Shown piece by piece: positions 31,000 to 64,000 of a stretch of 64,000 nucleotides of DNA. The DNA comes from Deltaproteobacteria bacterium (GTDB lineage: Bacteria; Desulfobacterota_D; UBA1144; Nemesobacterales; UBA2774). Made by a program: the position numbers and the translations under genes. The DNA lies in the NCBI GenBank assembly GCA_040223695.1, contig JAVKFU010000018.1, positions 1 to 64,000 of the forward strand, read 5' to 3'. Each line of letters begins with the position of its first letter. Positions within the stretch are counted from its first letter, which is position 1. Under the pieces are notes generated by a model. The model was not told the DNA's origin and did not search any database. It was given only the letters and a program-made list of their open reading frames with translations.

Positions 31000-31637
31000 A
31001 AATAAGCGAGATATTTTTCTCACTTCAGGGAGAGGGTGTGGAGATCGGGCTTCCGACCGTGTTCGTACGTCTCTTCGCCTGCGATTTGAGATGCAGCTGG
31101 TGCGATACGATGTATGCGGTCGAAGGCAGGGATTTTAAAAACTTTACCATCGCCGAAGTCGGGCAGGAGATAGAGAAATTCGAATGTAAAAGGGTGTGTA
31201 TAACGGGAGGCGAGCCGCTAATTCAGAAGAAGGAAGTGGAAGCACTTGCCTGGGGCCTCATAGACAGCGGTTATAATATTGTGCTCGAGACAAGCGGCCA
31301 CAAGATGCCGCCGCCTGTATTCTGGACGGATAAATGCGTCATCAGCATGGATTGTAAATGCCCCGGCTCGGGCATGCAGGACAGGATGGATCCGAGCCTT
31401 TTTGAAAAATTGAGGGGATGCGACCAGCTCAAATTCGTTATCGCCGATGAAACAGATTATGAATACGCAAAGGGAGTCATATCCGGCTATTCTATAAAAG
31501 CGAATATTATTTTTCAGCCCGTAGGCGGAGAAGGACTCGGCTGGATAAGCCAAAGAGTGATAGATGAAAGGGTGGAGCGTGTAAGAGTGCTCCCGCAGCT
31601 TCACAAAATAATATGGGGAAACAAGAGGGGTGTATAA
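30996..31637 (+). CDS. queE: 7-carboxy-7-deazaguanine synthase
   Basis: Radical-SAM enzyme one step before QueC. Cluster ligands C29, C33 and C36 (C-x3-C-x2-C), N-terminal IFFSLQGEGVEIGLPTVFVR, and TGGEPLIQ for SAM binding. 213 aa. Translationally coupled to queC by an ATGA overlap. Confidence 0.95.
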   Translation: MKISEIFFSLQGEGVEIGLPTVFVRLFACDLRCSWCDTMYAVEGRDFKNFTIAEVGQEIEKFECKRVCITGGEPLIQKKEVEALAWGLIDSGYNIVLETSGHKMPPPVFWTDKCVISMDCKCPGSGMQDRMDPSLFEKLRGCDQLKFVIADETDYEYAKGVISGYSIKANIIFQPVGGEGLGWISQRVIDERVERVRVLPQLHKIIWGNKRGV

Positions 31638-59981: not shown

Positions 59982-60073
59982 AGCTCCTTTCTCTCCTTGG
60001 GGTTTTTTAGCAGAGAATATATTACATTTATTTTTCATTTAGTCTAGTAGTCCGGGGCAGGCGCGAGTGTGGT

Positions 60074-60102
60074 TTGTAAACATTTTAAATTCTTAGTAGA
60101 AT
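60074..60102 (+). promoter_or_regulatory. Promoter of thiD, leaderless spacing
   Basis: TTGTAA (60074-60079), 17-base spacer, TAGAAT (60097-60102). The thiD GTG at 60111 begins 8 bases later. Confidence 0.5.
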
Positions 60103-60110
60103 AAATCGCC

Positions 60111-60911
60111 GTGGGGAAACAGGTTCCTAGAGCGCTGACTATTGCGGGTTCCGATTCCGGAGGAGGGGCCGGTATTCAGGCTGACCTTAAGACCTTTACC
60201 GCATTAGGGGTCTTCGGCATGTCTGTAATTACATCCGTCACAGCTCAAAATACGGTTTCGGTCCTCGGGAAAAGCGATCTTTCCGGCGGATTCGTGGAAT
60301 TACAAATTGACGCGGTGTTAAAAGACATCGGAGTGGACGCGGTTAAAACCGGGATGCTTTCAAATAAACGCATAGTGTTGTCCGTGGCGAGAAAGTTAAA
60401 GGAGTACGGGGTAAAAAAAATAGTGGTTGATCCTGTGATGGTGGCGAAGGGGGGGGATATTCTTCTGGACAGTGAAGCGAAGGATGTCCTGGTAGGCGAG
60501 CTTCTCGGGCTCGCTCATATCGTTACGCCGAATATACCCGAGGCGCAAGTGCTTTCAGGCACCCGGATAAACTCACTCGACGGGATGAAAGAAGCTGCGG
60601 AGAAAATCAGGAAGCTCGGCCCCGAGTATGTGCTCCTCAAGGGAGGACACCTTGAGGACATGACGGACGCGATAGATATTTTTTATGACGGCTCTACATT
60701 CTACGAGCTGAAGGCCCCGCGAATAGAGACCCGGAACACGCACGGCACGGGTTGCACGTATTCGGCTGCCGTATGCGCCTCGCTTGCCAGGGGGTTATCC
60801 CCGCTGGATGCGGTAAAAGAGGCCAAGGATTATACAACTTGCGCGATTAAGAGGTCTTTTGAACTGGGCAGGGGGCACGGACCCTTGAATCACTTTTGGA
60901 AATATGAATGA
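60111..60911 (+). CDS. thiD: Hydroxymethylpyrimidine/phosphomethylpyrimidine kinase
   Basis: Phosphorylates HMP and HMP-P in thiamine synthesis. ALTIAGSDSGGGAGIQADLKTF at the start, VDPVMVAKGG, and the C-terminal NTHGTGCTYSAA anion hole. 266 aa. The GTG start is supported by alignment to the family N-terminus; no Shine-Dalgarno. Followed within 13 bases by folD. Confidence 0.95.
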   Translation: MGKQVPRALTIAGSDSGGGAGIQADLKTFTALGVFGMSVITSVTAQNTVSVLGKSDLSGGFVELQIDAVLKDIGVDAVKTGMLSNKRIVLSVARKLKEYGVKKIVVDPVMVAKGGDILLDSEAKDVLVGELLGLAHIVTPNIPEAQVLSGTRINSLDGMKEAAEKIRKLGPEYVLLKGGHLEDMTDAIDIFYDGSTFYELKAPRIETRNTHGTGCTYSAAVCASLARGLSPLDAVKEAKDYTTCAIKRSFELGRGHGPLNHFWKYE

Positions 60912-60924
60912 TAAGGAGTCGGAA

Positions 60925-61779
60925 ATGGCGGATATAATAGACGGAAAAAAGGTTTCCCTGCATGTAAGGACCGGGGTAGCCGAGGGCGTTCAGACGCTTA
61001 AGAACGAAACCGGAGTAACCCCGGGGCTGGCTGCCGTGCTCGTGGGCGACGACCAGGCGTCCGAGATTTATGTCAGAAACAAGAGAAAGGCGTGCGCCGA
61101 TGCCGGAATCTATTCGGAAGAGCATAAGCTGCCCGAGGAAACAACCGAGGAAGAGCTGCTCACACTTGTGGAGAAGCTGAATGCGGATGGCAATATACAC
61201 GGCATACTGGTTCAGCTGCCGCTGCCCGATCAAATAAATGAAACCAAAGTGCTGAGGGCCGTCTCTCCGCTCAAGGACGTTGACGGCTTTCATCCCTATA
61301 ACGTCGGTCTGCTTGTGGAGGGCAACCCGAGATTTATTTCCTGCACTCCGCACGGGATTATAAAAATGCTCGAATTCTATAATATAGACATAAAAGGCAA
61401 GGAGGCCGTTGTCGTCGGAAGAAGCAATATCGTGGGCAAGCCCGTTTCGATGCTGCTTTTGCATCGTCATGCCACGGTCACGATTTGCCATTCCCGCACC
61501 AAGCCCCTGGACGAAGTCACCAGAAGGGCGGATATACTGGTTGCAGCGATCGGGCGGGCGAATTTTATAACCGCCGATATGGTGAAGGAAGGGGCGGTCG
61601 TAATCGATGTAGGCATAAACCGTAACGAAGAGGGGAAGCTAACAGGGGACGTAGATTTCGAAGCCGTTTCTAAAAAAGCCTCATACATCACTCCCGTGCC
61701 GGGCGGGGTGGGGCCTATGACAATCTCTATGCTCCTCTGGAACACGCTTGAGTCCGCAAAGAGTTTTTCGGGGCTGTGA
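60925..61779 (+). CDS. folD: Methylenetetrahydrofolate dehydrogenase/cyclohydrolase
   Basis: Bifunctional FolD. Landmarks: PGLAAVLVGDDQASEIYVRNKRKAC, GILVQLPLPDQI, VVGRSNIVGKPVSMLLL, and PVPGGVGPMTISMLL. I start at the ATG at 60925 because AAGGAG (60912-60917) sits at ideal spacing; the ATG at 60904 lies inside thiD. 284 aa. Confidence 0.96.
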   Translation: MADIIDGKKVSLHVRTGVAEGVQTLKNETGVTPGLAAVLVGDDQASEIYVRNKRKACADAGIYSEEHKLPEETTEEELLTLVEKLNADGNIHGILVQLPLPDQINETKVLRAVSPLKDVDGFHPYNVGLLVEGNPRFISCTPHGIIKMLEFYNIDIKGKEAVVVGRSNIVGKPVSMLLLHRHATVTICHSRTKPLDEVTRRADILVAAIGRANFITADMVKEGAVVIDVGINRNEEGKLTGDVDFEAVSKKASYITPVPGGVGPMTISMLLWNTLESAKSFSGL

Positions 61780-61795
61780 TTGAGCCGGGCAGCCC

Positions 61796-61925
61796 TGTGG
61801 ATAAACCCGGGTTTTAATTGTGACCGGTTATTCACATTTTCAGGGCTGGATTTTCATGAGCTACTCCAACTATCCGTGAATATTAACCTTATAGTTCCTT
61901 CCGTGGACTCTATCTATGTGTATAA
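61796..61925. other. Cluster of three DnaA boxes (possible replication origin or DnaA titration site)
   Basis: Three exact TTATNCACA 9-mers: TTATCCACA on the minus strand (61796-61804, the strongest consensus), TTATTCACA on the plus strand (61828-61836) and TTATACACA on the minus strand (61917-61925). A degenerate box (ATTTCCACA, minus) lies at 61972-61980. AT-rich sequence follows (61915-61970). Boxes 1 and 2 also lie in an imperfect inverted repeat extended by AGCCCT/AGGGCT, so a hairpin between the convergent genes folD and folK is an alternative reading. Confidence 0.5.
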
Positions 61926-61943
61926 TTTTAGGAAAAAGGTGTT

Positions 61944-62471
61944 TTATTTCTGTTTATAGGCTGTTAATGGCTGTGGAAATAATGTGGACGGACTTCCCGC
62001 CTTCCTTACAGATTTTGAGTCCTCGAGCTTATCAAGTAGCTGTGAGAGAGGCACATCGAGCGCGGGGTGTATGAAATCCGGGCTTATCTCCGACAGGGGC
62101 TCCAGCACGAAACGCCTCAGGTGAGAGCCGGGGTGCGGTATATTCAGCTCATCGCTATCGATCACGAGATTGTCGTAAAAGATTATATCGATGTCTATCG
62201 TCCTGGGTCCCCATTTCTCTTTGCGTACCCTTCCCAGTTTGTCTTCCACAGCTTTGAGTTCTGCCAGGAGTTTTCGGGGCGGGAGCGAAGTTTTAATCTC
62301 CACGGCGCAGTTTAAAAAATCAGGCTGCTCCTCATTTCCCACGGGCTCCGTCTCGTAAGCTGAGGAAACCATTACAATTTCCGTAAAGGCCGACATCATT
62401 TGAACCGCTTCTCTCAGGTTTTCCTTCCTGTTTCCGAGATTAGAGCCCAGTCCTAGAAATACGCGCGCCAT
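61944..62471 (-). CDS. folK: HPPK, 6-hydroxymethyl-7,8-dihydropterin pyrophosphokinase
   Basis: Adds pyrophosphate to the pterin in folate synthesis. VFLGLGSNLGNRKENLREAV at the start, ETEPVGNEEQPDFLNCAVEI, GPRTIDIDIIFYDN with metal-binding Asp pair, and IPHPGSHLRRFVLEPL. 175 aa. Its ATG is 6 bases after a TAATAT. Confidence 0.95.
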   Translation of the reverse strand: MARVFLGLGSNLGNRKENLREAVQMMSAFTEIVMVSSAYETEPVGNEEQPDFLNCAVEIKTSLPPRKLLAELKAVEDKLGRVRKEKWGPRTIDIDIIFYDNLVIDSDELNIPHPGSHLRRFVLEPLSEISPDFIHPALDVPLSQLLDKLEDSKSVRKAGSPSTLFPQPLTAYKQK

Positions 62472-62477
62472 GAACTT

Positions 62478-62507
62478 ATATTAAATCACAAAATTTTGAC
62501 TATCCAA
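62478..62507 (-). promoter_or_regulatory. Promoter of folK, leaderless spacing
   Basis: On the minus strand TTGGAT (62502-62507), 18-base spacer, TAATAT (62478-62483), then 6 bases to the ATG (62469-62471). Confidence 0.45.
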
Positions 62508-62545
62508 CCGCATTTTATAAACTTAAATAAGCGAGGTGAAATTAT

Positions 62546-62824
62546 ATGGCTTTATTATCGGAAGAAAAAATCAGGGAAGAACTCGAGGATTTGGAGGGAT
62601 GGGAGCAAAAGGGGAATGAAATTGCTAAGCAATTTAAATTCAAGAATTTCGTGGAATCCGTCGGTTTTGTGAATAAGACGGCCATTTTAGCCGAGAAAGC
62701 CGACCATCATCCCGATATTCTAATCCAGTACAACAAGGTAAATTTAACTCTTTCGACGCACAGTGAGGGAGGGCTGACCGAAAAGGATTTCAATCTGGCT
62801 CACGAGATCGAGAAAGTATCCTGA
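62546..62824 (+). CDS. phhB: Pterin-4a-carbinolamine dehydratase
   Basis: 92 aa. KADHHPDILIQYNKVNLTLSTH with the catalytic His pair and GGLTEKDFNLA are the family signature. Recycles oxidised pterin cofactor; some act as transcription coactivators. GAGGTG precedes the ATG. Next to folK but divergent from it. Confidence 0.94.
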   Translation: MALLSEEKIREELEDLEGWEQKGNEIAKQFKFKNFVESVGFVNKTAILAEKADHHPDILIQYNKVNLTLSTHSEGGLTEKDFNLAHEIEKVS

Positions 62825-62836
62825 CCCCGCGGATCA

Positions 62837-63115
62837 TCAGTTCTTTTTATTTTCGATTACTTCGAAATCCTCTTTATCGAGAATAACCGTGGTTCTGCCG
62901 TTTTCCTCAATGGTTTTTCTTGGCTTCTTTTTGTTAAAGGACGAGAACAGCTTTAAAACGCCGAATACAAGGGCTGCCGCGCCGATGACGATACCGAGAA
63001 AGAAGCCGAATACGGCCAGAATAGCTAATATCACGATACCGAGCAGCAAAACAAGCGGCAACATATATACCGGCGGTTTTCCCTGGTAAAAAAAGATTTT
63101 TCTATTTGGATTCAT
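62837..63115 (-). CDS. Small membrane protein, unknown
   Basis: About 92 aa from the ATG at 63115, which follows GGGGGAAA; the longer frame to 63172 adds an unlikely polar leader. Two hydrophobic helices (about 17-38 and 40-60 of the short form; MLPLVLLLGIVILAILAVFG) are followed by a charged cytosolic tail (KKKPRKTIEE). No family recognised. Downstream of the MoxR gene on the same strand. Confidence 0.65.
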   Translation of the reverse strand: MNPNRKIFFYQGKPPVYMLPLVLLLGIVILAILAVFGFFLGIVIGAAALVFGVLKLFSSFNKKKPRKTIEENGRTTVILDKEDFEVIENKKN

Positions 63116-63196
63116 TTTTTCCCCCGTTCGTGATCTCTCGATCACCCGGTAAACATATGGATAGTTTACCATGTAGTGTTTCCCGACGCCTGTTTT

Positions 63197-64000
63197 TTAG
63201 ATAGGCACCTTTACCCTTTGAAGAACTTCCCTAAGCGCCTCTTCATTCCCTTCCTGACCCATCATGTGCTCGTTTCGCACCACAACCCTGTGAGCAAGCA
63301 CCGCGACTGCCATTTCCTTAACGTCGTCCGGAATGCAATAGTTCCTTCTGTCGGTGAGGGCCCGGGCTTGGGCGACGCTTTTGAGCGCAATCGCTCCTCT
63401 CGGACTCACACCGAGTTCGAAAAACTTCGGATTCCGGGTTTCTTTTATTATTTCCAGAATATAGTCGAGTATCGATTCGTCAATTTTCACTCTTTCGGAC
63501 ATTTTTTGAAGATAGATTACTTCATCCGCGGATATAACGGGTTTTATGCTGTCCCAGGAGTTCACCGGGCTGAAAGTCGAAAGTATCTCCTTCTCGCTTT
63601 CACGGTCGGGGTAGCCGATGCTTATTCTTATTGAGAACCGGTCGAGCTGGTTTTCCGGAAGGGGAAAAGTCCCCTTGTATTCGAAAGGGTTTTGCGTGGC
63701 GATGACCATAAAGGGCTTCGGTATATCGTGAATATTGCCGTCCACAGTGGTTCTGGCCTCGTTCATTGCCTCAAGCAGCGCGCTCTGGGTCTTTGGTGTA
63801 GCTCTGTTTATTTCATCCGCCAGTACGATGTTTGCGAAAATTGGGCCCGGCTTGAACTTAAACTCCCCTGTGGACTGATCCAGCACGGATACTCCAAGTA
63901 TGTCGGAGGGCAGGAGGTCGCTTGTAAACTGAATTCTTTTAAAGGAGAGATCGGTCGAGCTGGCAAGCGCGTGGGCCAGTGTGGTCTTCCCCACCCCCGG
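63197..64000 (-). CDS. MoxR-family AAA+ ATPase (5' end beyond window)
   Basis: The frame runs off the window. Walker A (PGVGKTTLA, codons at the very end), [22 protein letters not shown] (Walker B), [24 protein letters not shown] (sensor 1 and MoxR motif) and the C-terminal lid [16 protein letters not shown]. MoxR proteins are chaperone-like ATPases, usually upstream of DUF58/VWA genes; those would lie downstream on the minus strand, but here a small membrane protein follows. Confidence 0.93.

Follow-up and report, generated by a model that had tools for sequence, protein, structure and literature searches.

A conserved array of DnaA boxes at the 3' end of folK forms a predicted DnaA docking element outside the replication origin

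In enterobacteria and Bacillus subtilis, much is known about extra-origin loci dedicated to the control of DnaA. A group of three exact DnaA boxes (TTATNCACA) in the convergent gap between folD (+) and folK (-) of a deltaproteobacterial draft genome raises the question of whether this is such a locus, an origin of replication, or a sequence that resembles DnaA boxes for some other reason. The stretch analyzed, referred to here as the window, comprises 64,000 nucleotides of contig C18. All three boxes were confirmed where an earlier note on this DNA had placed them (Table 1). The window contains five exact TTATNCACA matches compared with 1.28 expected, a number reached in 0 of 100 shuffles. Two of the five are isolated, one at 31195-31203 and one at 62668-62676 within the pterin-4a-carbinolamine dehydratase gene. 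The genome-wide box count that the earlier note had proposed gave 109 TTATNCACA sites in 3.03 Mb, as against 55 for the reversed control pattern. By simple arithmetic, the density of these 109 sites predicts ~0.001 triplets within 130 bp in the whole genome, and the three-box cluster is far beyond chance. A listing of 100 of the 109 sites showed just one further cluster of three boxes, at dnaA on contig C19. Two further box pairs (C9:192795/192825 and C7:95933/96022) lie inside genes or at a gene edge and look like chance occurrences.

The three exact boxes are part of a larger predicted DnaA docking element of ~200 bases (61796-61991). The earlier note had missed four degenerate boxes, A1 to A4, which lie in helical phase within the folK 3' end at 61951-61991. 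With folK read forward, A1-A4 are arranged head-to-tail at distances of 11, 10, and 11 bp, leaving gaps of 2 bp and once of 1 bp. Beyond A4, box A5 follows at 34 bp and, after the next ~89 bp, B1 (reverse) and B2 (forward), the last two being separated by 32 bp from start to start. The five-box array of the window scored 30 out of a possible 40 versus a null of 18.7 +/- 1.4 (null maximum 24). A ATTAnAGGnAGTTA-like motif in the A5-B1 spacer (window 61837-61916, and relatives) is strongest in genus g2, is also found in G016, and may be bound by a partner protein.

Table 1. Features of the folK element and its flanking genes (window coordinates)
Feature	Position	Strand	Remarks
folD	60904..61779	+	convergent neighbor; element does not need folD
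B2, perfect DnaA box TTATCCACA	61796..61804	-	relative position same in nearly all relatives
B1, DnaA box TTATTCACA	61828..61836	+	divergent partner of B2, 23-bp spacer
B1-A5 spacer	61837..61916		length roughly constant within families; motif like ATTAnAGGnAGTTA weakly conserved
A5, DnaA box TTATACACA	61917..61925	-
folK (HPPK)	61944..62471	-	TIGR01498, 155.5 bits; C-terminal tail codons overlap A1-A4
A4, degenerate DnaA box CTATAAACA	61951..61959	-	in folK 3' end
A3, degenerate DnaA box CCATTAACA	61962..61970	-
A2, degenerate DnaA box ATTTCCACA	61972..61980	-
A1, degenerate DnaA box CCGTCCACA	61983..61991	-

Loci were gathered by searching 60 relatives, all of them draft genomes, for FolD, FolK, and DnaA; the records that carry names are of Ca. 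Dadabacteria/Thermodesulfobacteriota metagenome-assembled genomes. The earlier note had named a lack of box conservation in relatives as grounds for abandoning its claim; the opposite was found. The same layout is present at the 3' end of folK in 26 genomes, all Ca. Dadabacteria-like metagenome-assembled genomes from six family groups of the order (f1, f2, f3, f4, f7, and f6g15). Alignment at this end gave a layout common to 22 relatives, with the boxes at fixed positions relative to the end of folK. The 5,610 bp of 22 elements contain 33 exact boxes, compared with 2 in the 73,933 bp that surround them at the same loci; the corresponding P value of 5e-36 overstates the independence of the data because the genomes are related. 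Of 25 genomes that carry the element, 22 had an array score that none of 200 shuffles reached; P values were 0.01-0.025 in the other three (G003, G017, and G029). A search for the B1/B2 geometry as an exact pattern in 44 genomes matched 7 of them, once in each and always at folK, and control matches numbered 0; the pattern is palindromic, and both strands were counted as one occurrence. Nine folK loci from groups f5, f6g10, f8, f9, and f11 were tested, and the array was at chance level in each. The element is absent from f6g10 and f5, two lineages of the order with small genomes, and also from f8, the sister family, and is therefore dispensable over long times. A second, diverged HPPK-family gene besides folK is present at G000:C13:34333-34686 and in most f1 relatives.

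A model of the array (R1), built purely from the sequences of 20 genomes including that of the window, had its best match at the folK 3' end in all 20. In the present genome it matched C18:61916-61991 with an E value of 1.8e-12, a figure to be read with the knowledge that this sequence is in the model. Held-out genomes were matched at folK with E values of 1.7e-11 (G032), 8.7e-10 (G028), 1.2e-7 (G034), and 3e-6 (G017), and there were weak matches at folK in G003 and G029, which brings the number of genomes with the element to 26. Many of the weaker second matches lie beside dnaA; in this genome, one falls upstream of that gene. The array is thereby connected to DnaA by evidence that presupposes no box consensus. 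A second R1 match was seen in G009 (C72:6408-6458, E 5e-5), where two near-boxes are 11 bp apart at a site away from folK and on a different contig from dnaA.

In most genomes A1-A4 overlap the codons of the FolK tail, as would be the case if the array were a by-product of a conserved C-terminal peptide or had clustered by chance. The folK stop codon, however, falls before or at the array start in G009 and G011, and in G034 the array starts ~80 bp beyond the stop. In these three genomes, all or most of the array is thus beyond the stop codon, indicating that it is the DNA that is kept rather than the peptide. B1, B2, and A5 are non-coding throughout and yet are conserved. An origin in chance or in peptide conservation is scarcely credible.

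The earlier note had cautioned that the boxes now labeled B1 and B2 belong to an imperfect inverted repeat, which might be a bidirectional intrinsic terminator hairpin that resembles DnaA boxes by accident. The inverted repeat is real in this genome. In the relatives, however, the complementarity is confined to the boxes: where a B1/B2 pair could be identified (16 genomes), the 10 bp flanking it show about as much complementarity as expected by chance. The sole terminator-like site found (61987-62001) is at shuffle level and is not at the pair, and a terminator would leave the direct-repeat array unexplained. A hairpin with this function is accordingly most improbable. Searching positions 60000-63500 against Rfam at the gathering threshold matched no family.

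The location of the element between two converging 3' ends is also what would be expected of a DnaA-dependent transcription roadblock. Box-bound DnaA can block transcription, according to work on asnC cited in PMC10950094, and control of the folate genes by DnaA is a related idea. Against this, the element stays at folK in genomes where folD is located elsewhere (G018, G021, G026, and G029), and it is retained at locus L037 despite an insert of >1 kb between folD and folK. No promoter-like site was found in the folD-folK gap, and seven phased boxes exceed what a roadblock requires. We regard transcriptional control as a rather improbable role.

A chromosomal origin was one of the two candidate readings in the earlier note, which pointed to the DnaA-box cluster and to AT-rich sequence close by. 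The dnaA gene of this genome is located at C19:154968-155459 and dnaN is on the same contig, which is not that of folK. Their intergenic gap contains three TTATCCACA boxes plus TAGTAGTAGCAGTAGTAG-GGCC-TGTGGATTTGTGGATAA and is, as predicted from these motifs, a textbook basal unwinding system (BUS) with a DnaA-trio (CTACTACTGCTACTACTA), of the family described in PMC8287927. Trio-like runs are found in the dnaA-dnaN gap of most relatives, whereas a DnaA-trio was found in 0 of 25 folK elements. The cumulative GC skew that the earlier note had suggested as a check does not have its minimum at 61.8 kb; on C18 its lowest values are at ~100-140 kb, and 60 kb is close to a local maximum, although the skew is weak and, at the level of a contig, carries little weight. 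The claim that the folK element is the origin, or a second origin, is not sustained, and either is very unlikely.

Separate contigs carry folK and dnaA in G002 as well as in this genome, where their distance would be ~120 kb if the contigs adjoin at their nearest ends. In genomes that lack the element the distance is 38-46 kb (f6g10/f5) or ~140 kb (f8). Two other regions were noted. In the f6g10 genomes, a conserved non-folK region 15-22 kb from dnaA (L260-L266) carries CATTCCACAATTTATCAACAG followed by TTGTTTGATATCAGGCAATTA, with degenerate boxes numbering only two; it may serve as a further site related to replication where the folK element is lacking. The distant relative G059 has inverted arrays of perfect TTATCCACA boxes with 11-bp spacing, in two clusters that face apart (L268, C2:964939-965200), and a TAATAGTAATAG trio-like run nearby. 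The locus is 600 kb from dnaA (C2:370 kb) and is likely an oriC located away from that gene.

The folK element shares with an oriC that has a BUS the box consensus and the phasing of the boxes, and many of the weaker R1 matches are at dnaA, but it has no DnaA-trio and is not located at dnaA. A titration or datA-like site, which the earlier note had offered as its alternative, is supported, as the boxes form a conserved cluster outside oriC. On the sequence evidence, the folK element would be a conserved DnaA-assembly locus outside oriC, with a role like that of datA or of the DnaA-box clusters (DBCs) of B. subtilis, a reading to which we assign a probability of roughly 0.6.

Similarity to datA, the DDAH locus of Escherichia coli, which promotes hydrolysis of DnaA-bound ATP, is evident in the grouping of high- and low-affinity boxes outside oriC with conserved spacing, in the position in a gap downstream of genes, and in the spacer between the box groups. 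Nevertheless, datA requires an IHF site and boxes 2, 3, and 7, whereas the folK element has a head-to-tail array and a divergent pair with a 23-bp spacer, and its genomic location is unrelated. The IHF consensus WATCAANNNNTTR was not enriched in 22 spacers (154 versus 152.3 +/- 2.5), and a perfect consensus occurred in the spacer of G026 only; several IHF/HU-family proteins are encoded by these genomes. We have not classified the folK element as datA because an IHF site was not detected. The DBCs of B. subtilis lie outside the origin and limit the amount of free DnaA (PMC5295017); the folK element would act likewise, and at the sequence level it too is a dense extra-origin cluster of DnaA boxes. 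The B. subtilis clusters are six in number and scattered, whereas there is one strong cluster per genome here, its geometry fixed and its linkage to folK maintained over most of the order.

The opposite direction of regulation was also considered, in which the divergent pair would hold ADP-DnaA, promote nucleotide exchange, and so raise the level of active DnaA, the low-affinity array providing feedback as in DARS2. The E. coli loci DARS1 and DARS2 have an opposed box pair, which in DARS2 is accompanied by low-affinity boxes arrayed 2-3 bp apart (PMC8682772). The core of E. coli DARS1, however, is convergent with a 5-bp spacer (TTATCCACT-N5-TGTGGATAA), whereas the folK pair is divergent with 23 bp. 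The DARS arrangement of convergent boxes I and II across a short spacer, together with box III, was not seen in the aligned folK elements. A DARS-like function is unlikely.

Returning to the reading of the folK element as a DnaA-assembly locus, its observed clustering, geometry, and conservation suggest how DnaA would bind and in which direction it would act. The strong boxes B1, B2, and A5 would anchor DnaA, from which ATP-DnaA could spread cooperatively and head-to-tail along the weak boxes A4 to A1. Such assembly is best at box intervals of 2-3 bp in E. coli oriC and DARS2 (PMC8682772). The divergent B1/B2 pair may carry a second, small DnaA complex. The bound DnaA would be sequestered, or its ATP hydrolysis would be promoted within the filament. 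Doubling of the locus after its replication would then leave less active DnaA and hinder re-initiation; in B. subtilis, deletion of the six DnaA-box clusters leads to early initiation (PMC5295017). The probable role of the folK element is to contribute to the timing of replication, as a sink or a switch for DnaA. The draft genome gave one PF00308 match only, and the extra PF00308 matches of relatives (eight were read) appeared by eye to be DnaC/IstB-type ATPases and not Hda. DNA-based control of DnaA would fit with this draft-genome search, in which Hda was not detected.

A more specific proposal, put forward tentatively and with considerable doubt, is that the folK locus represents a new type of DnaA control locus that extends across the order. 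It would combine a phased head-to-tail filament site, located partly in folK codons, with a coupled divergent pair, and would act on the nucleotide state of DnaA in an IHF-free manner in genomes where Hda was undetected. In the open-access literature searched we found no paper that links DnaA boxes to the folK 3' end.

The presence of a locus with fixed geometry across most of an uncultured order suggests that dedicated DnaA control loci are more widespread, and that they can be found through comparative sequence alone. The folK locus also illustrates how one regulatory DNA element can lie over the tail of a gene in some species and past its stop codon in others. The geometry of the element provides a concrete, testable model for DnaA assembly at a single locus.
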